DNA of 64,000 nt from Letharia columbiana. Taxonomy: Eukaryota; Ascomycota; Lecanoromycetes; Lecanorales; Parmeliaceae. Under the pieces are notes generated by a model. That model worked only from the letters and a program-made list of their open reading frames with translations, did no database searches and had not been told where the DNA came from. This document shows, piece by piece, positions 9,905 to 64,000 of this stretch (its first letter is position 1; each line of letters begins with the position of its first letter). The stretch covers positions 1-64,000 of the forward strand of contig NW_023501087.1 of NCBI RefSeq assembly GCF_014066305.1. The letters are read 5' to 3'. The position numbers and the translations under genes were made by a program.

Positions 9905-10640
9905 GTTTTTCTTCAATTCCCAGCTGTATAGCAACGAGGAAGCGCGAGCTAGAACAAAATTGAAAAAGGAAGATTTAGGGAAGATTTGGGGGGAGAGCGC
10001 GGGTTTTAAGAAGAGGCTGGGACTAGAAGGAGATGCTGTTGATAACCCGTGACTTGTTCTGTGCATTGGGACGAGGCTGAAGATATCTACAGCGGATGAG
10101 GAAATGTAAGCGTTCCGTTTTTGGAAATGTAAGCCAGCAGGATGCATGAAGGCGTTCACTTGGCATTGATGTACCCCTGATCAATCAATCCTTGGGGCCA
10201 ATGGCAGGATTCACGCAAGATGGGTAGCGACAGACAATGGCGGCACGGGTGTCTCGTCGAGGAATGGCATGCGTTTTTGGACAGACCTCGTCTATTGTAG
10301 AAGTTTTAAGAAAGCAGCTTACCATTTACGCAGGTCACTGTGGCTTTGCCAATCGGCCTAGGTCAGCATACTCTCAGGAGTCAACAAGTATCGGAGGACC
10401 ATCCGCTGCCCTCATACAGCAGTGTGCGGGTATATTCTAGCATTAGGCGAACCCGAGGTGGCAGCTGGATCGCTTTCATATTGATTGCCTTAGGGACCTG
10501 CGTCTGAGCAGTGGCTGACTTCAACTAACGCTTGGCTGCTGTGTCTTCAAGCCCAGCTCTTAGAGACTACTTCGTTCCATGGAGCCTGGAGGATAGCTTA
10601 GTATTACTGTACGTTATTGGTGGTGTAGGAGTAATATTCG
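9905..10640. other. intergenic, left border of the RIP island
   Basis: Promoter of the cysteine-rich surface gene, then ordinary-GC sequence without a supported gene. It ends where AT-saturated sequence begins. Confidence 0.5.
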
Positions 10641-10643
10641 ATC

Positions 10644-10665
10644 TTGATTGATTGATTGATTGATT
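10644..10665 (-). repeat. (AATC)n tail, probable 3' end of the LINE
   Basis: Five or so GATT units on the plus strand, which read AATC on the minus strand. They mark exactly the border between normal and RIPped sequence. Short tandem tails are typical 3' ends of Tad1-like LINEs, and the LINE here is read from the minus strand. Confidence 0.5.
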
Positions 10666-13579
10666 ACATCATACTACCCTGAAGTCTTACCCTAGTAGCC
10701 GACTATGCGAGTTACGTAATCTATCTAATCCTTTCGGCCAATCATATAATCTTAAATAAATAAGACTATATAAGTTATCGTTATAATTCTATATCTTACT
10801 ATCCTTAATTCTTAAAAAGAGGTATATTCTATATCGCTAAGACCCTTTTATCTTAATCGTATTCTTCTTTTTAACCGCCTACTCTAGTAAATTCTTATTA
10901 TTAATCTTTATTAAGGGCTTAATATTATTTAATAAGTTTAATACTTCTTATAAAGTCCGTCGTTATAGAGGCGTAGTGTAACTTTATTAGCATATTCTTA
11001 TAAGTAATAACCCTCTCTTTTATCTTCCTTCTTTCTTTAGCTTATTATATTCCTCGCTTCTTATTAAATAATCTATATTTATAAAGAATATATTAAGTCG
11101 TCTACTTCGCTTTATACTTATATTCTTTATTCTCTATATTCGATATCTATCGATTATAAAGAAAGGCCTTAAGACCTATTTTCTTAATTCTTATTTACGT
11201 TATTAGCGATATCTTAGCGCGCTTAACTCTTAAATATAAAAGTTATATTTATTTTAACGATGTTAATTAGATTCTTCTAAGAATACCACCTCGCTTCTTA
11301 TTAATCTATTCGATAATTTATTATTCTATTACGTAATCTCTAATAGCTATCTTAATTATTAATATTATTCTTATTTATATAATTAATAATTAAGCTATTT
11401 TATTAATATTTACCTCTACTCTTTTATTATAAATTACTCGCTCTCGCTAATTAGTAATCTTCTTCGTCTCTCTATTTATCTATTTATTATTATCGATATT
11501 AATATATATCGAAATCTAATATAATTCTATTACTATCTCGAGATATCTTAGCGAATTAATAATCTATACTACTTATATTATATAGATCTATCTTAAATAC
11601 TTACTCGAGTCTTCGATAGTTTAAATTAATACTTAATTATTCGTATTTACTATAATTTTACTAAGTTATAACCTTATTTAATATATAACTATTATAATTA
11701 AAGCTTAAAGAATATTATATAATTTCGTTAAGTATATTATATATTAGTCGCTTAAGTCTAAATAGATATTAAAAGTAGAATTAATATCTAATAATATAGC
11801 TAAAACTCTCATCTTTTTATTAATCTCGCTATTGTCTATATATATTATTATATAACTTTTATTAATCGATCTTTTAATTAATTCTTTAGCGGCTTTTTTA
11901 GTCTTATAAATTATTATTTTAAAAGACTCTTAATTAAAAGCGACGCTAAAAGAGCGTAATTTCTTAATCTTATTAATATCGCTATATTATTCTTTAAATC
12001 TATTAATATATCGCTTTAGTAAACTTAATTTCCTATTCTTTTTAGATTTTCTTTTAAACTTTTATTACTCGAATTATAACTTAATAATCTCGCTATATAT
12101 TAAACTAGTAGCGATTTATAAAATAGCTTTCGAGATAATCTTATCTAGCTATTATTTAACTAATAGAAAATACGCTTTTATATCGAATACTAAAATAAAT
12201 ATAGCCTTAAATACTTTAATTATCTTTCTCTCTATCTAAGATTAAATCCTTTATAACGATAAGAGATAAGTTTTATTATAATTAATAATATCTTCGGGCT
12301 AATATTATATTAAGTAGTAATACGTTATTTATAGAATAATTATCATCTAATAGAGCTATCTTATACTCTTATAATTATTATCTTATATTAATTTAATAAT
12401 TCTCGCTAATATATTAATACTTTTAATAGTTTTAGATTAAATCTTCTTATTATAATAACTTTATAGAAGTTTAAAATTAAAATTTCGACTTCTAGATAGC
12501 GAATAAAGCGTCTCGCCTTAATATATTATCTCTTATTAAATTATAGAAAATAATCTAAGCTAAATCTCTATTTTCTATTAAAATATAGTAATTAATATTT
12601 ATTAAGATTAAACTTCAATTTATATCGTAACGCCTACTTTATATAAACTTCGTTATAGATTTTATAAAAAGCGTTATAATTTTCCTCGATAGAGTCTTCT
12701 ATTATTAAAAGATCTATATCATCTATAAAGTCGATAACTATCGTTTCTAAGTCGACGCGATTATTATATTTATTAATAAGATCTAAATTATAGAAGAGAT
12801 AAAGTATAAGCGATAACGATAATTCTTAAGAAATTTTAATTACTATAGAAGTCTTTAATATAAAGTATTCGCTTATTTTTAATATTATTATTCTATTAAA
12901 TAAGAACGATTCTATCTAATTAACTACTCTTATATTAATTTTTCGCTTTCGAAGATTATAAAGTAGTCGAGAATAAGAGACTTTATTATATATATCTAAA
13001 ATGTCTAGTAATAATATCGTAATTACTTTATTAGAGTTTTAGATCTAATATATTCTTTCTAGAAGATAGTAAATATTATATTTATATAATCGCAATCTAC
13101 GGCCTCTTATATATATAACTAGTAGAAGTCTATATATTTTCGCAAGATATACTATTCTTCTAGTAAGAATAAATTTTATTACCTTTTCTATAATATTAAG
13201 TAAAGCTATTAATCGATATCCTTTAAAAATCGAATAGTTCTTATTCGACTTTAGAAGAATAATTATTATTAATATTCTAAAGTACTCTAAGTAGTAGTTA
13301 TTTATTATATATATATTAAATATTCTATATAGATAAGAAAGTAACGACTTTAGAATCTTTTTAAGAATTAGATTAAGAATCGCGTTTTTCTCTAAGGCTC
13401 TCTTCAACGATACTTACGTTATAGCCTTTCTTATCTTATTTATAATAATTATACTTATTAGATAGACTTATAAATACGCTATATCGACGTTAATATTATT
13501 TAACTTTATCTATATCGATAATAAAAAGAACGTTCTTATAAGAAGATCTATCTTCGAGTCTAATTCGTTATATTCTTAT

Positions 13580-15150
13580 ACTAATCGAAAAGATATAGTT
13601 ACTGGCCGGAAAGGTATGGTATGGTATGGGATATTGACCTGCCATACCATACTCTGGCATGGTACGGGTTATTGAGATTTGCATGATCCCATACCTGGTA
13701 TGGTATGGGATCTTGGCGGTATATCCCACGGTATGGTATATCTGTGGTATCATACCATGGAATGGTATATGTATGGGATATCCCGACTGGGATTTCTATA
13801 TTTAGAAGTATAAGTAGCTATTCTGATCATCATTCTGGCCAACCATGGCTCCCTATCATCTACCTGACTGCCACTACCATGACTCCACTACCATGCCTAC
13901 CATCGAAATATGGCCCCCGCGCATCCCAGCCACCATGTTTTCCAGCTACCTAATTTTGTACTATATTTAGAACCTGGCCCCGGAGAGGTTCTGGAGAATT
14001 GATCGTCCGTTCTACACATCACATACCTGACATTCTAACAGCTACCACTACCATGGCTATCACTATCATGGCTATCACTATTTATTATTAAAATAGCCTA
14101 CTATCATATGGTAGCCATGTAGTGGTGTTTGGGGCGGCCATTGGTAGGGGCGGCCATGGTAGGGGCGGCCAGTAAGGGGCAGCCATGGTAGTGGCAGTCA
14201 TGGTAGATGATAGTGGTAGCTATGATACCGTGGGATATACCGCCAAGATCCCGAACCCATACCAGAAAAATGGTATGGTATCCGACCCTACCCATACCAT
14301 ACCCGGGTATGGTGTGGTATCACTTGGTATGGAATATCCCATGGGATATACCATACCTTTCCGGCCAGTAGATATAGTATATCTTATAAAATATTTCATA
14401 TTAAGTAATATTATACTATACTCGAGTATAGTATAAGTAGGGTCGAATATTATACTATTTTTCTAATATAGATTCGAGATCTTAACGGGATATTCTACGG
14501 TATAATATATCTATAGAATCATATCATGATATGAAATATATATGAGATATTCTAGTTGAGATTTCTATATTTAGAAGTATAAGTAGCTATTCTAGTTATT
14601 ATTCTAGTTAATTATAGCTATTACTATTATAACTATTACTATTATAGCTACTACTTACTATTATAACTATTACTTACTATTATAGCTATTACTATCGTAG
14701 CTATTACTACTATAGCTACTATATAATAATAGACTATTTTAATAATAAATAGTAGTAGCTATAATAGTAGTAGCTATAATAGAGTTATAATAGTAATAGT
14801 TATAATAGATAGATATAATAGTAGTAGTTATAATAGTAGTAGCTATAATAGTAGTAACTATAATAGTAATAGTTATAGTAATAATAGTTATAATAGTAGT
14901 AGCTATAATTAACTAGAATAATAACTAGAATAGCTACTTATACTTCTAAATATAGAAATCCCAGTTAAGATATCTTATATATATTTCATATTATAATATA
15001 ATATTACAGATATATTATACCGTAGAATATCTCGTTAAGATTTCATATTATATTAGATATGAAATTATATAAATCTTAATAACTTATACTATACTAGAGT
15101 ATAATATAATAGATTAATATTCTATACCATATCATACCTTTCCGACTAGT
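13580..15150. mobile_element. MITE copy B (Mutator-like), RIPped, split by copy A
   Basis: The left end ACTAATCGAAAAG (13580) and right end CTTTTCCGACTAGT-like sequence (to 15150) are inverted repeats. They are flanked by an exact 10-bp duplication, ATATTCTTAT (13570-13579 and 15151-15160). Without copy A and its duplicated site the element is about 792 bp. The interior consists of imperfect TAGCTA/ATAATAGTAGTAGCTATA repeats and has no coding capacity. A 9-11 bp duplication plus long inverted ends is the hallmark of Mutator-like elements. Confidence 0.85.
13601..14369. mobile_element. MITE copy A (Mutator-like), intact composition, nested in B
   Basis: 769 bp bounded by ACTGGCCGGAAAGGTATGGT and its inverted copy (22 bp match). 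It is flanked by AGATATAGTT (13591-13600) and AGATATAGTA (14370-14379), a 10-bp duplication with one mismatch. It lies inside the left end of copy B. Unlike its surroundings it keeps CCATGG, GGCCG and other C/G-rich words, so it was not RIPped. It shares 'TTTCTATATTTAGAAGTATAAGTAGCTATTCT'-type interior sequence with B and C. It has no open frame of note. The mobilising transposase must lie elsewhere in the genome. Confidence 0.88.
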
Positions 15151-16384
15151 ATATTCTTATTTATCTTTATTAAATAGTAAAGAGAGATACATCTATATTA
15201 TAAGTTATTTTCTAATTTACTTAGTCTTTTTCTATATTATTTATAATAACTTATACGCTTTTACTATAAACTCTCTAAACGCCTTTCTAATAGTTCTCTT
15301 AATTAGATTATTTTTAAAGTTCTTAATAACTTTATACTTATTCTATACTTTCTTTAAAAATATTATTCTCTAGCTTCTTTTTAGTAATTTATAACGCTTT
15401 TATACTTTCTTATATTCTAATATAAATTTCAATCTAAATTATAGCGATAATCTAATAATCGAAGTAAACTTCTTTATAGCCGCTTAAATAGAGTTAATAA
15501 TAATTACTATTTAATAATCGATACTATCGTTAATAAGATTTTTATTATTTCTCGAGGAATTAACTAGATACTCTTTCGATACTATAGCTCTAGCGAATAT
15601 CTCTCTTAAAACCTCGATATCTAGTTTATTAAAGTTTCGGCGTATTATTAATACTAACTCTATTACGATTAGCTTAAACTTTATAAAAATTAGAAGATAG
15701 TTAAATTCGCTTTTAAAATTATTTTTAATATTATAATTAATAATATTTACTATTAGTATTAAAGTAGCGAATAATAGATCTATTATTATTTAATAGTTTT
15801 TTTTATATATTATTATTTCTACTAATAATACTTATTTTATAGCGAATTCTTTCGCTATAAGTATTAGTTCTTCTACTCTCTTATTAATATAAGTATTTAA
15901 TTCCCTTTATATCGTATAATAAAGATTAAAGTCGCTTAATATAATCTATTCGTTATTCTTAGACTTTATAAGCGTCTTATATAATTTATTAAGTTCGTCT
16001 ATTTATTAGTCGTCGAGATTATAGATATTATATATATATATATTTCTATTATTTTTAAACTTAATATTAAGAGTATAGAGGTTCGATAAGTAATATAATA
16101 AGTATTATTACTTTAATAATATTCTCTTATTAATATAGAAATATACTCGTATATTATTATAGTAGAGATAGATTAAGTTAAATCTATCCTTTAGAGAATA
16201 ATATAATATATTTATATAAGTAAAGGCCTATAAATTAAATTCATGAAGTTGAATTTTTCATTTTTCTAAGTTAAATAGAGTTGGATTTTTCTAAGTTAAA
16301 TGAAATTTTAGCCCTAGCCCTAAGTCAAATCGAACTCTAATCGCTTGCTGTGCGTTTTTAACCTACTTCTACTACTATAAAATT

Positions 16385-17560
16385 AATTTAATCTATATAA
16401 TATATAGGCATATATGTGCGGAGAGAGGCGCGCTAAGGTTTAATTAGAAAGGTGTATTAAGTATAAAGGATTGATCCGTAATAATTACCCAAAAAATAGA
16501 GAAAGGCCATATTCTTATGGCAAGAAGTATCGAAATACCGGAAAGAAATGGAGACAACGTGCTAATTAGTGGTGTGAATCTCACAATATCTTCTGCCGCA
16601 GTGAAATTTTCGAATAATGAAATAGCTGTAGACATCGGATGGTCTCAATTCGTTCAAATATGCATTGGAGAGCATATGACGTGGGATCTTGGAGAGCTGA
16701 GCCGTGTTCTTGGTGCTGGGGGCCTTGTTGCCGCTTGGTTTCTCCGCAGTGTTCTCCATAGTGTTCTCCGCAGTATTTTCCGCATTTGCCTGTTGTAGTT
16801 CCTTCTCTTACTCCTTAATGTAGTGGGGATGACAGGCTAAGTTGCAGTGGTGTTCTCCGCTTGCTAAGTGATAATTTGATATGGAACCCGTGGAGAGTAT
16901 ATAATGTGGGATCTTGGAGAGCTGAGCCGTGTTCTTGGTGCTAGGGGCCTTATTACCGCTTGATTTCTCCGCAGTATTCTCCATAGTGTTCTCCGCAGTG
17001 TTCTCCGCATTTGCCTATTGTAATTCCTCCTCTTACTCCTTAATATAGTAAGGATAATAGACTAAATTACAGTGGTATTCTCCACTTACTAAGTAATAAT
17101 TTGATGTGGAATCGTAGAGAGCATATAACGTGGGATCTTGAAGAGCTAAGCCGTGTTCTTAGTACTGAAGGCCTTATTACCGCTTGATTTCTCCGCAGTA
17201 TTCTCTATAGTATTCTCCGTAGTATTCTCCGCATTTATTTATTATAGTTTCTTCTCTTACTTCTTCTCTTATAGAGTATTAGATTAAGTAACTAGCTAAG
17301 TAGCTAATTAAGTAAATAACTAATATAACGTAAGATCTTAAAGAGCTAAGCTATATTCTTAACGATAGTAGTCTTATTACCGCTTAGTTTCTTCGTAATA
17401 TTCTTTATATTTACCTATTATAGTTTCTTCTCTTACTTCTTCTCTTATAGAGTATTAGATTAAATAGCTAGTTAAATAGCTAATTAAGTAGATAATTAAG
17501 TAACTAACTAATAATCTAACTAAGTAAATTATTAAATTAATAGAGTAAATAGTATTAACT
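16385..17560 (-). mobile_element. Degraded relative of the BIR-carrying LTR element
   Basis: 16388-16440 aligns with the LTR at 61.6 kb (shared 'GCAGATATGTGCGG'-like and 'CTACGCTA'-like words). 16520-16620 aligns with 61735-61860. 16671-16800 aligns with 62095-62215 (shared GTGGGATCTTGGAGAGCTGA). On the minus strand, 16759-16562 still encodes 'MENTAEKPSGNKAPSTKNTAQLSKIPRHML', matching the C-terminal part of the BIR ORF. The 'GTGGGATCTTGGAGAG' segment recurs at about 16680, 16906, 17130 and 17330, a tandem unit of roughly 225 bp, and AT content rises from unit to unit. I do not see the BIR domain itself in this copy. Confidence 0.7.
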
Positions 17561-17830
17561 AAGTAGCTAGTCGAGTATCGCTAGCTTAAGAGAAGTATAT
17601 AAAAGAGAACGATAGCTATAAATTCGTTTAGACTCTTTTTAAGAGTCTTTTAACGCGTTTATAAGTAGGTAGACGCGTCTTAAAAGATAGTATCGCTAAG
17701 TTAAAAGATATTATCGCTGACTTAGAAGGAGTATATAGAAGAGGATATATTCGTTCGAGCTCTTTTTAAAGATCTTTTAACGTATTTATAAGTAGTAGTA
17801 AATAGCTATTAAACTCGCTTACGGCCTCGA
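17560..17830. repeat. RIPped ~120-bp tandem duplication
   Basis: Two similar units: 'AGAAGTATATAAAAGAG...TCTTTTAACGCGTTTATAAGTAGGTA' and 'GGAGTATATAGAAGAGG...TCTTTTAACGTATTTATAAGTAGTAG'. They are diverged by C-to-T/G-to-A changes and non-coding. Confidence 0.45.
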
Positions 17831-17884
17831 TTACTAGTAATAGCGAATTCGTCGAGAGATAATCTAGAGGCGTTAGTAGAGGCT

Positions 17885-18675
17885 ACTAGTCGAAAAGATA
17901 TAATATATTCTATAGAATATTTCATATTAAGTAATACTATATCGTACTCGAATATAATATAAGTAGAGTCGAATATCATTTCATTTTTCTAATATGAATT
18001 CGAAATCTTAGCGAGATATTTTACGATATAGTATATCTATGAGATTATATTATAATATAAAATATATATAAGATATCTCGACTAAGATTTCTATATTTAG
18101 AAGTATAAGTAGCTATTCTAGTTATTATTCTAGTTAATTATAGCTACTACTATTATAGCTACTACTATTATAGCTATTACTATTATAGCTATTACTATTA
18201 TAACTATTACTTATTATTATAGCTATTACTATTATAGCTACTATATAATAGTAAACTATTTTAATAATAAATAGTAATAGCTATAATAGTAATAGCTATA
18301 ATAGAGTTATAATAGTAATAGATATAATAATAATAAATATAATAGTAATAGCTATAATAGTAATAGCTATAATAATAGTAATTATAATAATAATAGCTAT
18401 AGTAGTAATAGCTATAGTAGTAATAGCTATAATTAACTAGAATAATAATTAGAATAACTACTTATACTTTTAAAATATAGAAATCTTAGTCGAATTATTT
18501 TATATATATCTTATATTATAATATAATATTATAAATATATTATATCGTAGAATATCTCGCTAAGATTCTATACTATATTAGATATGAAATTATATAAATC
18601 TTAATAATCTATACTATATTAGAGTATAATATAATAGATTAATATTCTATATTATATTATATCTTTTCGACTAGT
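17885..18675. mobile_element. MITE copy C (Mutator-like), RIPped
   Basis: 791 bp with ends ACTAGTCGAAAAG and CTTTTCGACTAGT. It is flanked by AGTAGAGGCT (17875-17884) and AATAGAGACT (18676-18685). These two 10-mers differ only by two G-to-A changes, which RIP would produce. The interior is collinear with copy B (TAGCTATTACTATTATAG-type repeats). Confidence 0.85.
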
Positions 18676-18685
18676 AATAGAGACT

Positions 18686-21180
18686 CTAAGAACGAGTAAA
18701 AGAAATATATATGCCTAAAGCGTTTAGTAACGTTTCCGCGAGGGGTATCGAGGATAATTATATTCATATTAGTAAATTAATAGAATTAATAGAATGATGA
18801 AAGAAAGAAGAATAATTATATAAATAGGTGGAAGGATTATTATCCGATCTCGAACGCGTCTGGTATAGCTATTATAACTATTATATTTAAATATTTATTT
18901 AACTTATTAATAGTAGGCTAAACTTTATTATTTTTACAACGTTAGAAAGCGCACACTGAGCTCTATAATTTACGAAATTATAAAGAAATAGCATTCGTAG
19001 AGACTAGTTATTTTAGAGTGTAAAACTTCTATATATAAATTTTTAATAAGAGAGCTCGAGAGGGCTAGCGGGCTAACTTAGATAGTCTAGTTAAAAGACG
19101 TAATAATCTCGAATTTATAATTAACTATATATATAAATTCAAGGTTTTCTAGTTTAGCTCTACCTTATTCTATTATATATATTAATTAATATTTCTTTAA
19201 AGCTTCTAAATTACTACTATATTAATATTATAGATCTTTTTATTATCGAAGAGTTCTACTATAACTATTTTAGATTTTCTTATATTATATTATAGTATTA
19301 ATAACTAACTAAGATATACTATTATTTCTCGATATTATTATTAATATTACTTACTCGCTTCGTCTAGTCTATAGAGTCTATATCTTCTTTCTAAGTATTC
19401 TTCTTTTCTTAATCGTTAATAGATCGTCATCGAATATATCTCTTTTTATTCTTATTAACGAGAATCGTAATTCTCTTATTACTACTCTTTTAACTTAGAG
19501 ACTATCTAGCGTCCTCGAAGTTATTAATTTCCCTTATCGCTATATTATTCTTATATCGTTTAACTTCGTCTACTACTTTAAAGAGCGATTTATTTCTAGA
19601 TAAGACCCTTATTAATAATATAGAAGTATATCTTCTTTTACTCGACTAGAGATTTAATATAATAGTTCTTTCGAGATTTAATCCTCTAATTCCTTTTCTA
19701 TTAATTATTCTATCTCTATCTACTAGCCTATCGCGCGTAAATATTAACCTTAAAAAAAATTCCTTATTTCGCCTACGATTAAACGTATTCTAAAAGTAAT
19801 TACTTAATTAATCGCTTATTTAATAGCTAGTCGATATCTTCTTCGTTATTATAAATCGTAAAGAAGTTTATTATCTCGCTATTCTTATTCTCGCTATCTC
19901 CCTCTTCTTTACTATATATATCTTATTTTAAGCCTTATATAATCCCTCGTAAACTGGGTATTTACGAGTATCGGCCTATATAATCTTTATAATAATACTT
20001 CTCTAAGTATTTTCTATATACTAAGTAATTCTTTTTAGAATATATAATCGATAGATAATCGTATTTCTAATATACGAAGTATTACTTCAATCTATACTAC
20101 TTATTATAGACGTAATAGCTATATAATTTCTAAACCAATAACTAGATCTTCTTCTAGTACTTTATTTTCTTTCTCTAGAGATATTAATTCGATAATTAAT
20201 AAACTCTTATTATAACTCTCTTTATTCGCGCCGAACTAGTCTAGCTATATTATATCGAGGCTTAGCGTATTAACGTTCTTATTCTAAATTCTTTTAATTA
20301 TTATAGTTATATCTTTAATATCGAATATATTAATCCTTACTTTATAGAGTAAAAGACTATATATTTTAATAATTACTCTCGCGCTATTATTTATCTTTAA
20401 AGTCTAATCCTTACTTTTTCTTAATTTATTCGCCTTCTTCTTATTTATAATTATAATATATATATCGCTACTCGCTAGCCTTCTAGTCGTTCTAATAGAT
20501 TTTCTTATAATATTTATATTCTTTATATATTTATTAATTATCGTAATTATCTCACTCGATATCTTTCTCTTTAATACTTTACTTATTATCTCATCTTATA
20601 ACTTTATAATAATCTCATTTAACTTATTATATAATACTTAATCTTATTTTAATATTACTAATAATATAATAGAAATTTCTTTAATAGTAGAGAAGAATAT
20701 CGAGAATTAGCTTAGTACGCTAGCGTAGCTAGCTATCGATATATTACTTCTTAAACTAGCTATCTAATACTTAATATATATAATCTTTTTCTTTATATTA
20801 CTATCTCGATTACTTAAATTAATAACTAGTTTATATACTTCGTCTAAGACTATCTAGATTTTAAATTTATTATTTATTCTTTTTATAAATATTACCGCCT
20901 TAAGAATAATAACTACTTCGTTTATTAATAATTTCTAGCCTTTATTTATTATTTTTAATATAATATTTATCGATAACTTTAATATAAATGCGTACTCCTT
21001 AAAATCGTAGCTATTATAGTTTTATTAAAGCTAGCTAATCTTATTCGATATAGTTATAAGAGTATAGACGTTCCTTAAAGCTAATTAAAGAGGTATTAAT
21101 CTTACTAAGTACTTTAAATATATATATCTACTTTCTATAGCTCAATAATATAGCATAAGCGTTATGCGAAAGTTTCTTTT
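18686..21180. mobile_element. RIPped transposon sequence, possibly the LINE 5' part
   Basis: Heavily AT-converted, stops in all frames. Around 20.0 kb a minus-strand frame reads 'YSKKNYLVYRKYLEKYYYKDY'. If TAT/TAC codons are former TGT/TGC, this could be a zinc-knuckle region of a LINE ORF1, but this is inference. Nothing else identifiable. Confidence 0.35.
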
Positions 21181-21800
21181 TAATATTCGATCTTGCCCAC
21201 CAGAGAGTTCTAGATCACCAATACACATTGGAGCTAAACAACTTTGGGTCTAGCCGCTGCTGTCACTGAAGGCGCTTTCGCTTGCGATTATGTTGCCCAA
21301 AACATCTGCTCGCCACGTGGTCTGATTCGATGCAACCTCCTCGCAATCTCCAGCCAGTCTCTCAGTATCATTCACCGTTCTTCCTTCTACACTCTTCACC
21401 ACGGGCAACAACATCAATGAGGCTTTATCCAGAAGATCCTGAGCTGCTCGATAACACCCAATTCCATATCAGGGAAGCATGTTTCCATAACCCTGTCCCG
21501 TTCGAGAAGAACGGGCTCGTCTTGCGCCATCTGGCGCTTATGAAGAGCTCAATGGGCTTTGTATGGCCGAGGACGCCAGTTCTATATCTCTAGGGACTGT
21601 AGTGGGCAAAAAGGATGACGCCTACCAACGGATGCCCAATTGGAAAGCCTAGGTATCGAAAGAAAGAGTGTGCAGCAGCGTGGACTTGACGAAAGCATCA
21701 TGTATGAATCCTTTGATGTGGAGGCCTATGTACAAAAGAACGATCAGTCTACGCAATCAATCTTATTGCGTTCCTCTCCCCACAACCACGAGAACACACT
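21181..21800. other. intergenic at the right border of the RIP island
   Basis: Base composition returns to normal. A 103-aa plus-strand frame at 21282-21593 and others overlap; I see no family resemblance or promoter layout. Confidence 0.4.
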
Positions 21801-22727
21801 TCATCTCTCCTCCAACATCTTCCCTCCCGTCAGTTCCTCACCAATCTTCTTCATCCTCTCCCTGGTAGTAATCTCATTCCCCTCCGCGCTATCCAACGCT
21901 GTCTGCCTCCCAGTCTTGTTAGCCTTCCCTAACAACTCCTGCACCGTCTCCGGGAATCCCAGATTCCAAATATTTAGTCCCTCACTACTATCGGTCCTGA
22001 ATTGGCTATTATCATCGAACGCCCTGTCAACCACCTCGTCCAGCTGCTTGCCTGTTGTAATGAAATCACCAGCATTGACGTAAAGAGTGTGTAAGGCGTT
22101 TCTCCGGGCCTCTTCCCGCATGGCTGCCATATCGGCGACATTCTGGCTCATGACCGCGAGACGACCGGGGCGCGTGGGATCAGGAAGCGCGCGGTGTTTT
22201 GTTGGCTGTTGAGTTGAGAGGACTGAGGGGTTGGTGAGCCGAACATCTTTGCGTTCAGGGGCGTAAAGACGCTTTTCTCTAATCCTGGTATTTGCGGCAC
22301 TTATTATACTCCTCCTTCGATCAGATTCCTGTCTCCTCTGATGCAGCTCTGCCAACCCTTCCCGAAGATTTCGCCGCCGTAGCTCCGATTGACGGGCTTT
22401 CCAGCTCACGAATTCGTCGTCTGATCTGGTGGTTTTATCTTCAAGGGGTTCGGGGGTGACAGCGGCGAAGTATTCCGGAGAGGCTCTGGGTATCTTCCCC
22501 TCTTTTCGCCGATGGAAAATATCTCTGGGAGGAGGAAGGACGCCTTTCATGCGTACGGGGAAGGGTTGTTTTGGTTGGACGAGGCGTGGGACTTCAATGA
22601 ACTTGGGCGACTCCGGGGGTATTTGAGCACGGGAGGGGGAGGATGTGCTAAAGCCGGGTGATTTGGTGTGGTGGATACATTGCCGTGGTCTGAGGCAGCG
22701 TTGTGTACCCACAGCTCGAGGAGGCAT
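21801..22727 (-). CDS. PET123: Mitochondrial small-subunit ribosomal protein mS26 (PET123 type)
   Basis: Single exon, 308 aa, ATG at 22727. The N-terminus is basic and Ser/Pro-rich and would serve as a mitochondrial presequence. The middle holds 'GVLPPPRDIF', typical of the family, followed by a long Arg/Glu-rich helix ('ELRRRNLREGLAELHQRRQESDRRR'). The C-terminal third, 'TRPGRLAVMSQNVADMAAMREEARRNALHTLYVNAGDFITTGKQLDEVVDRAF', matches the conserved region of fungal Pet123/mS26, with the usual [FY]-I-x-T-x-x-[EQ]-L-[ED]-x-x-[VI] pattern. It is a structural protein of the mitoribosome small subunit. It is divergent from NOG2, with 235 bp between the start codons, so the two probably share a bidirectional promoter. 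Confidence 0.82.
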   Translation of the reverse strand: MPPRAVGTQRCLRPRQCIHHTKSPGFSTSSPSRAQIPPESPKFIEVPRLVQPKQPFPVRMKGVLPPPRDIFHRRKEGKIPRASPEYFAAVTPEPLEDKTTRSDDEFVSWKARQSELRRRNLREGLAELHQRRQESDRRRSIISAANTRIREKRLYAPERKDVRLTNPSVLSTQQPTKHRALPDPTRPGRLAVMSQNVADMAAMREEARRNALHTLYVNAGDFITTGKQLDEVVDRAFDDNSQFRTDSSEGLNIWNLGFPETVQELLGKANKTGRQTALDSAEGNEITTRERMKKIGEELTGGKMLEER

Positions 22728-60974: not shown

Positions 60975-61522
<548 letters not shown>

Positions 61523-61548
61523 GAATTATATTTATAACTTTAATTATT

Positions 61549-61690
61549 TGTTAAGGAATCATTATGATTTGACTCATATATGTGTGTGGTGTAAAAGATG
61601 TTGATTAATCTATGTGGTCTGCAGGCAGATATGTGCGGTGCCAAGCCTACGCTAGTGGCCCTATGAGTATGCCTCAGGCATCTCATGACA
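61549..61690 (-). repeat. LTR, downstream copy (3' LTR of the minus-strand element)
   Basis: 142 bp, TG...CA, 141 of 142 positions identical to 62761-62902. The one difference is A at 61568 versus G in the other copy. Confidence 0.92.
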
Positions 61691-61875
61691 ATTGCCCACA
61701 AAAAACAGAGAAATGCCATGTCCTCATGGCAAGAAGTACGCATGCATGAATGAGTGAGTTTTCGAAATGCTGGAAAGGAATGGAGAGACCAGGCCAATTA
61801 GTGGTGTGAATCCCACGAGTTCTCCTGCCGCAGTGAAACCCCTCGAATAGTACCGGAGCAAGACATCAGACGGTT

Positions 61876-62898
61876 TCAATTGTCCAAATATGCATCGTCC
61901 GATGTTCCTCTGCAGAGACCCAATTGGCCATAGTGATTTGGCTGTGACCGCCGCAGTAGGTCCTTCTCTTGTATCGTCATTGCAGTGATGTACCACAATG
62001 TGATATTGCCCAGGCATGCAGAGATAGCAGGCCAAATTGTAGTGTCGTTCTCCTGCTGAGTGGTGGTTTGACGTGGGAGCGTGGATAGCATATGACGTGG
62101 GATCTTGGAGAGCTGAGCCGTGTTCTTGGTGATGGTGGCCTTGTTGTCGCTTGCTTTCTCCGCAGTGCTCTCCGCAGTGCTCTCCGCAGTGTTCTCCGCA
62201 ATTGCCTGTAGTGGTTCCTCCTCTTGTAAAGTACCAGACTGAGTGACTGAGTGAGTGGCTGGCTGATCGACTTGTAGAGACCTTCTCGTATATTGCTGGC
62301 GAGTCTTCTGATTCCGATGCTTCTTTTTCTGCTGTGTTGCACGTACAAATGGACACTCCGGGGATCGAGTAGCGTGGAAATCGAATGGACTACCGTCACT
62401 ATACCAGTCACAAGGATCAAGACCGCATAGTGAGCACACAGTGAGATCCGGAGATGGAAAAGTAGGGTCGTATTCTCGACGAAAGCCAGCACGGGCTACG
62501 GTAGAGGCACTTGGACACACGTGCGGCCATGACGTGAATGAGGCGAGTCTCTCAGCGTATGAATTCATAATATCGATATCGATAGGCCTATCAAAAGGAT
62601 CGATGTGGGCGTGGGTTTTGTCAAAAGGTACTCGATGACGCGAGTGTATTGGAGGTCCGGCTTGGAGCGTCACACTATTAGGTGTTGATGTGGGCTTTGC
62701 GTAAACGTCTGATATGACGCCTGGATGTCCTATGAAGTAGGGCCAGGTGTTGCTACCAATTGTTAAGGAATCATTATGGTTTGACTCATATATGTGTGTG
62801 GTGTAAAAGATGTTGATTAATCTATGTGGTCTGCAGGCAGATATGTGCGGTGCCAAGCCTACGCTAGTGGCCCTATGAGTATGCCTCAGGCATCTCAT
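61876..62898 (-). CDS. BIR-domain protein encoded inside an LTR element
   Basis: 340 codons are open from an ATG at 62898 inside the LTR; an ATG at 62568 (M111) starts directly at the domain. Residues 111-190 form a BIR domain: 'MNSYAERLASFTSWPH' start, 'LARAGF'-like 'VARAGFRREYDP', then C155-x2-C158-x16-H175-x6-C182 with W165 between ('VCSLCGLDPCDWYSDGSPFDFHATRSPECPFV'). That is the canonical zinc-binding spacing of inhibitor-of-apoptosis and Bir1/survivin proteins. A Lys/Arg-rich segment (possible nuclear signal, 'QKKKHRNQKTRQQYTRRS') follows, then Gln/Glu/Thr-rich sequence with a 12-bp repeat encoding TAES. The C-terminal third matches the degraded copy at 16.6 kb. Captured host gene or element-own function is unknown. 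Confidence 0.82.
   Translation of the reverse strand: MRCLRHTHRATSVGLAPHISACRPHRLINIFYTTHIYESNHNDSLTIGSNTWPYFIGHPGVISDVYAKPTSTPNSVTLQAGPPIHSRHRVPFDKTHAHIDPFDRPIDIDIMNSYAERLASFTSWPHVCPSASTVARAGFRREYDPTFPSPDLTVCSLCGLDPCDWYSDGSPFDFHATRSPECPFVRATQQKKKHRNQKTRQQYTRRSLQVDQPATHSVTQSGTLQEEEPLQAIAENTAESTAESTAEKASDNKATITKNTAQLSKIPRHMLSTLPRQTTTQQENDTTIWPAISACLGNITLWYITAMTIQEKDLLRRSQPNHYGQLGLCRGTSDDAYLDN
62746..62760 (-). promoter_or_regulatory. primer-binding site of the LTR element
   Basis: Minus strand: LTR end, spacer AT, then TGGTAGCAACACC. TGGTAGC is complementary to a tRNA 3' end (GCUACCA), as in elements primed by initiator-Met-type tRNAs. The exact tRNA is not determined. Confidence 0.55.
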
Positions 62899-62902
62899 GA
62901 CA
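62761..62902 (-). repeat. LTR, upstream copy (5' LTR of the minus-strand element)
   Basis: 142 bp, TG...CA, adjacent to the primer-binding site. It contains the first ATG of the BIR frame at 62898. Confidence 0.92.
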
Positions 62903-62907
62903 TTATT

Positions 62908-63944
62908 ATAGAGAAAATAGCTTAGAGCTACTATATTCTTCTTCGGAAGTATATATATTATTTAAATCTTACTTAAGAGAATCTTATAATTATTAAAATA
63001 AGTCGATAGAAGTAGTCGATATAATATAAGAAACTTCTTTTATTTATTAGCGAGATTTAAAAGAATTAAGATCTTTTTAGAATCTCGAGTTTTTATATAG
63101 CGATTAATAAATATATAATTAAGAAGATAAAGTGTATATCTTATTCTATTATAGCTCTAGATTAGTTAATTAAAGAGAAATATAAGCTCTTTATAATTAG
63201 TAATAAGAGCTATATCTATAATTACGTATAATATTTTCCGATATAAAAATTAGAAAATAGGCTAGAAACTAAAGAACTTAAAGAAATATTAGCTATAATA
63301 TTTAAATTAGCTACGAATACCCTTCTAAAGAATATTATTCTCTTTATAAATAACTATTTTACTTATCTAAAGCTGGTTATAGCTCTAAGAGATAGAAGAA
63401 TTATAATATATAAAACTATAAAGTCTACTTAACGAGATCTTTTAAAATTACTTATAAAGATAAAATAGATATTTACTAAGAATATTTCTTACGAAGTTCT
63501 TACTATAATAGTTTAAGATAATATTCTTATAATAGTCTAGTAAGATAATAATCTTATTTTAGAACTTACTACTAGATATAGTATTCGAGAGATTAATAAC
63601 TATATCTTTAAAAAAGGAAATATTCTAGTAAAATTAATATAAATACTGTATTACTTTATCTGCTTTTAAGAAGAATAAGAAGAATATCTAGAAGAAGGAA
63701 TTTAAGATTTTTAAGCTTTTTTACTATTATAATAAGTATATAGAGGAGATAAATCGATTTAATACATTAGTAACTATATATATTTCTTAGCGAGTCTATA
63801 ATTGTAATTGAATACCCTTATTCTACTAATATTTAAATAGAGTCTTATAAATACTTTTAAGCTCTATAAATTAATAGGGTTATTTAAGAGTATTAGAAAT
63901 TTCTTAAAAGTGTAATAGTAGAGTTGTTGAAAGAAGGAGATATC
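62908..63944 (+). mobile_element. RIPped retroelement, 3' part
   Basis: AT-saturated sequence with stops in all frames and the same depletion of CpA/TpG as the first island. It is followed by a purine-rich tract (AAAGAAGGAGA, 63930-63940) and TATC, the place of a polypurine tract before a 3' LTR. No protein family could be read. Confidence 0.5.
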
Positions 63945-64000
63945 TGTCAGGACCAGCATAGATGCGATATTAGTATGGGTGAGGTAGAACTAGGATAATA
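63945..64000 (+). repeat. possible start of a 3' LTR, cut by the window end
   Basis: TGTCAGGACCAGCATAGATG begins right after the purine tract and the TATC. TGT is the usual LTR start and the composition becomes normal. Only 56 bases are visible. Confidence 0.4.

Follow-up and report, generated by a model that had tools for sequence, protein, structure and literature searches.

A short LTR retrotransposon of the lichen-forming fungus Letharia columbiana with a predicted BIR domain and a probable Gag remnant

BIR domains are known from planarian Burro elements, giant Gypsy retrotransposons with long terminal repeats (LTRs; PMC6431247), and gag-only LTR elements are known from plants (TR-GAG) and from a lichen alga (RLG_Kyoko; PMC12542154). 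Here we analyse a window of 64,000 nucleotides (contig NW_023501087.1, positions 1 to 64,000) of the lichen-forming ascomycete Letharia columbiana (Parmeliaceae), which hosts a small LTR element encoding a predicted BIR-domain protein. The window lies on contig C52 (407,219 bases), and the searches covered the genome of 52.2 Mb in 161 contigs; contigs, loci and proteins are given below as C, L and P numbers. As the best explanation of the whole, with a probability of roughly 0.42, we suggest a gag-derived, non-autonomous element whose BIR module serves the element itself as an adaptor.

The Letharia element resembles Burro in combining, between LTRs, a BIR with probable Gag sequence. Burro, however, exceeds 30 kb and encodes reverse transcriptase, integrase and an ORF1 polyprotein of 4,873 amino acids with many other domains, whereas the Letharia element measures 1.35 kb and no pol was found in it. 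With TR-GAG and RLG_Kyoko it shares LTR borders, absence of pol, a probably Gag-derived open reading frame (ORF) and a presumed mobilisation in trans; it differs in that its probable Gag is a short remnant with the N-terminus apparently replaced by a host-type BIR, in having several exchangeable N-termini, and in its fungal host. Literature searches gave no report of a BIR-bearing LTR element of this kind in fungi, consistent with the initial annotation of this DNA, which knew of no such described family; Burro is the precedent from outside the fungi. TRIM elements resemble the element in length (1354 bp), LTRs and lack of pol. By the usual definition TRIMs are non-coding, and here the element departs from them, having an ORF of which a part is constrained.

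The sense strand was taken as the minus strand because a primer-binding-site-like sequence abuts the minus-strand 5' LTR. The parts of the element are the following.

61549-62902, sense on the minus strand: whole LTR element, 1354 bp, with two 142-bp LTRs and one mismatch between them
61549..61690, minus strand: LTR, 3' in sense orientation, 142 bp
62761..62902, minus strand: 5' LTR of the sense strand, 142 bp, differing from the 3' LTR by one mismatch
61544..61548, no strand: left copy of the target-site duplication TTATT
62903..62907, no strand: right copy of the target-site duplication TTATT
62746..62760, minus strand: primer-binding-site-like ATTGGTAGCAACACC, directly inside the sense 5' LTR
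61876..62568, minus strand: likely coding region, 230 amino acids plus stop, made of BIR, basic tail, T/Q/E-rich linker and probable Gag remnant
62344..62550, minus strand: BIR domain (PF00653)
62272..62343, minus strand: basic tail RATQQKKKHRNQKTRQQYTRRSLQ, common to P0014 and P0017
61930..62058, minus strand: probable Gag capsid remnant, about 43 residues at the ORF C-terminus
62267..62574, minus strand: exchangeable N-terminal cassette, junctions seen against L013, L015 and L017

The LTRs, the short target duplication and the primer-binding site that characterize LTR retrotransposons are thus all present, as the initial annotation had reported. A 5-bp duplication flanks 13 of the 14 copies excised from the genome, L003 being the one without. 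The 18-base primer-site pattern, with up to two mismatches allowed, occurs at 43 genome sites against one for a reversed control; when tRNA acceptor stems matching the site were sought by pattern, 7 per strand came up against 6 in the control, and no primer tRNA stood out. Where a polypurine tract was sought, before the 3' LTR in sense, there is only a T/G-rich stretch. No pol was recognized by Pfam in the three largest minus-strand ORFs of the 1070-bp internal region. The TpA/ApT index of repeat-induced point mutation (RIP) is 0.65 in the element, i.e. no RIP signature, against a strong 1.33 in the right-hand flank, which fits a recent insertion next to old degraded DNA. These features are best explained by a young, non-autonomous LTR retrotransposon encoding one small predicted protein.

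The frame originally proposed (340 amino acids, from 62898) starts within the LTR, and this start has to be given up. Annotated or predicted relatives (P0003, P0004, P0005, P0009) use the start MNSYA, which corresponds to 62568 in the window, and in L002-L006 and L008 a stop closes the frame within about 32 codons upstream of this methionine. Translation is therefore likely to begin at 62568, with a predicted product of 230 amino acids. The best protein match of the longer frame is HO173_009757 of L. columbiana (99% identity over 84%), and relatives occur in Letharia lupina and on further contigs.

Judged by profile and motif, the BIR domain is genuine. Residues 117-185 of the 340-amino-acid frame match PF00653 with E 6.5e-10 and 39.9 bits (cut-off 22.9). 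The zinc-ligand signature C-x2-C-x16-H-x6-C given in the initial annotation is present in the window copy, with x15 instead of x16 in L002-L005. PDB sequences matched by the BIR segment include survivin/BIRC5, BIRC6, NAIP and XIAP. The structure predicted for the BIR ORF product had low confidence (pLDDT 46, 7 sequences) and was not used.

The ORF is repeated, as had been supposed. A tblastn search with the 99-residue BIR segment, whose counts are lower bounds, found at least 24 places: 13 young copies, one short fragment, a host gene on C69 (45%) and 9 diverged matches. The young copies, at least 13, are 82-100% identical over 98 or 99 residues, and 8 of the 13 listed, among them the window copy, lack a stop in the segment, so the frame also survives in copies other than that of the window. 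The diverged relatives, at least nine, show 30-47% identity and 4 to 10 stops each; in 8 of 9 the match takes in the basic tail up to its last residue, and these copies (C130:87604 and others) look like old, RIP-degraded relatives. The ratio of non-synonymous to synonymous substitution rates (dN/dS), proposed earlier as a check on the copies, is 0.10-0.17 in the BIR segment (98-99 codons) between the window copy and six intact copies, L002-L006 and L008; as L002-L005 are identical there, this makes three distinct comparisons, all involving the window copy. Against the stop-bearing L007, L009, L010 and L011 it is 0.11, 0.25, 0.42 and 0.22, stop codons set aside. When the same base changes were placed at random positions, the six pairs among L001, L002, L006 and L008 gave P of 0.0002, 0.0004, 0.0080, 0.0018, 0.0134 and 0.0002. 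For the BIR segment P was below 0.05 in 8 of 10 pairs; it lay above this level for L001-L010 (0.068) and for L006-L007 (0.63, with three changes). L012 and L014, which have no second LTR match, were excluded, and the pairs, having a common history, do not count as independent tests. The changes between copies suggest that the BIR domain has been kept working.

The C-terminus of the ORF is probably, if weakly shown to be, a short Gag capsid remnant. It matches positions 223-266 of a Gag profile with E 0.0065, the best of 860 shuffled sequences reaching E 0.33, and hhalign gives E 2.6e-4 with a probability of 42; taken per protein the match is weak. L078, a related gag-only element, has a full Gag, and its encoded protein is predicted to have the capsid fold. 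Of the earlier statement that the element contains no gag or pol, the pol part stands, and the gag part probably falls with this likely remnant behind the BIR and with the full gag-only relatives. We read the element as gag-derived, the Gag N-terminus having apparently been swapped for BIR plus basic tail.

That such a swap may not be unique is indicated by sister elements. Among 30 genome loci, the 14 with two near-complete LTRs were excised, and loci with two partial LTR matches (L016, L019, L022, L024-L026, L029) were excluded; 11 of the 14 carry a BIR, and three (L013, L015, L017) do not. In these three, similarity to the window element ends at sense nucleotide 326-328 and restarts at 637; the BIR start codon of the window element is at 335 and its basic tail ends at 631, and between the same two junctions the three have N-termini other than BIR. 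From 637 to the end L013 is 95.7% identical to the window element (at least 99% in 8 of 9 steps from 750), and its cassette is unrelated to that of the window and 95-100% like that of L017. Moreover, L008 combines the BIR cassette with an L013-type leader and L017 the L013 cassette with a window-type leader. Leader types thus do not go with particular cassettes, a pattern to be expected if reverse transcription switched templates between co-packaged RNAs.

Two further observations concern the family. L004 (C8:1016401) and L008 (C2:353902) have identical 8-base flanks, TAAGATAC and GATACTCT, as if inserted at the same site of a repeat. At C36:108125-110006 and 517433-518927 there are many short, close-set, array-like matches to the element linker.

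The initial annotation had considered a captured host gene and named Bir1. The BIR profile search of the genome gave 17 matches, 11 in element copies and 6 at four other loci: two in L031 (C25:552748-553270), Bir1-like by reading of its sequence, two in L032 (C25:181455-181886), one at C69:47924 in a single-BIR frame, and one at C1:2096798 carrying an in-frame stop. Among the host BIRs compared, the closest to the element BIR is the single-BIR gene L033 (HO173_011276) with 48% identity; L031a and L032b reach 33%, and the two BIRs of Bir1-like L031 33% and 27%. A tree groups the element BIRs with P0017 and L033 (94/99), the element BIRs alone at 74/65, several rows being long-branched. L033, which also has one BIR, differs from the element in having another C-terminus, no such basic tail, and no match to the element LTR in its 3.2-kb locus; a protein search with it gave no match besides L033 itself. 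P0017 and P0014 have BIRs 47% and 84% identical to that of the element, each with a similar basic tail. The N-terminal half of the element protein, a BIR with a basic tail, is through its BIR related to the host single-BIR gene.

In P0095 a BIR (52.3 bits) is followed by what reads as a C2H2-like motif and, behind it, by a Gag region (E 2.1e-52); its BIR is 25% identical to that of the window, and a test for a second capture gave an approximately unbiased (AU) p of 0.147. The host frame of L032 has two BIRs, with a C2H2-like motif, again read by eye, behind them. Possibly, though with the odds against it, the family exchanges, at fixed junctions, the domain that forms the N-terminus of its reduced Gag; a single backbone would then present changing host-interaction modules, including a host-recruited BIR kept by selection and perhaps recruited more than once, as P0095 might indicate.

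Related pol-bearing elements with open frames do exist in the genome. At C3:1386516-1390127 Gag similarity and reverse transcriptase stand in one open frame of 2335 amino acids, with a primer-site-like sequence at C3:1385661, two mismatches from the pattern; this element is a candidate partner, not a proven one.

As for the surroundings, AT-rich blocks at 10001-22000 and 62903-64000 have a RIP-type TpA/ApT of 1.16-1.33, and the 2-kb steps apart from 10001-22000 and 62001-64000 give 0.42-0.83. Runs of 69, 30 and 244 A adjoin the element (61132-61520; A makes up 87% of 61001-61530) and may be either a real tract or an artefact of assembly.

We propose the following course of events. Reverse transcription and integration would be supplied in trans by another element, and cassettes would be exchanged through template switching between co-packaged RNAs. 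The BIR-basic module would then serve the element as an adaptor which binds a host protein and brings element RNA, particle or nucleus-bound complex there; this is the least certain step. The basic tail might bind RNA or direct the product to the nucleus, which is a guess.

Several results weigh against this proposal. From linker to remnant end, P was below 0.05 in 7 of 44 pairs, each of which involves L015, so there is no general constraint, though repeats make alignment uncertain in this region. Seven copies bounded by LTRs have a BIR free of stops, and in two of them (L002, L008) the frame shifts between BIR and remnant; moreover, 5 of the 13 young copies listed have a stop in the BIR segment itself. 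The young BIR copies C9:429289 and C126:24185 were missed by the BIR profile search. P0014, with BIR and basic tail, has no match to the Gag remnant, and the annotated L. lupina proteins P0011, P0012 and P0013 are without the zinc core. Finally, the C3 element has no LTR similarity to the window family beyond about 20 bp in the 281 bases upstream of its primer site. The constraint thus lies in BIR and basic tail, and it may be of no importance that the remnant is fused to them. Because of the frame shifts we lowered the probability of the proposal as a whole from about 0.45 to 0.42, the weight moving to a survival factor and to a passenger, both discussed below. P0011-P0013 begin like the BIR cassette, but after ...SPDLT their sequence continues directly with the basic tail, through either annotated introns or deletions.

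The small BIR protein might instead act like an inhibitor of apoptosis protein (IAP), helping carrier cells to survive by damping a stress response or the death of host cells, with the Gag remnant as a leftover. The confinement of constraint to the BIR segment and the frame shifts of L002 and L008 agree with this. Pfam, however, finds the BIR alone in the frame, with no RING or UBA as in IAPs, and the positions which we take to form the IAP pocket are only partly kept in the element BIR. We know of no caspases in fungi, and the role of Bir1 there is in chromosome segregation. Although review text on Burro mentions extra domains linked to apoptosis and ubiquitination (PMC6431247), we regard such a survival factor as rather unlikely.

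A chromatin tether is distinctly unlikely; here the BIR, by reading histone H3 or by binding to the chromosomal passenger complex, would guide integration or segregation in the manner of chromovirus chromodomains. The basic tail and the presence of two-BIR host genes, one of them Bir1-like by reading, speak for it; the nearest host BIR, however, is that of single-BIR L033 and not that of L031. Moreover, survivin K62, E65, D71, E76 and H80, which we take to be the H3-reading pocket, align to L, C, G, F and R in the element, a point that counts against the adaptor reading as well. With these positions not kept, survivin-type H3 reading by the element BIR is unlikely.

It is quite improbable that the BIR is a neutral passenger, a captured host fragment on a short element and functionless for it. 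The part behind the BIR is not generally constrained and the nine diverged relatives listed are full of stops, but the synonymous excess among four distinct intact sequences and the retention of the domain in P0017 at 47% identity argue otherwise. Repeated fresh capture from a selected host gene, whereby the constraint would be the donor's, is very improbable: a related gene exists in L033 (45-48%), but once the 13 young copies and one fragment are set aside, none of the listed matches to the 99-residue segment in the assembly exceeds 47% identity, and the compared copies share a basic tail that L033 lacks.

Taken together, we return to the gag-derived element with its own BIR adaptor. Non-autonomous LTR elements are usually regarded as passive cargo; this 1.35-kb element of Letharia seems to benefit from a domain of host origin. 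As sister elements hold other sequences in the cassette position, the gain of a retroelement from a captured host domain becomes testable, in a system small enough for whole-protein expression. The Letharia element would then represent a second case, distant from Burro, of a BIR in an LTR element with Gag sequence.
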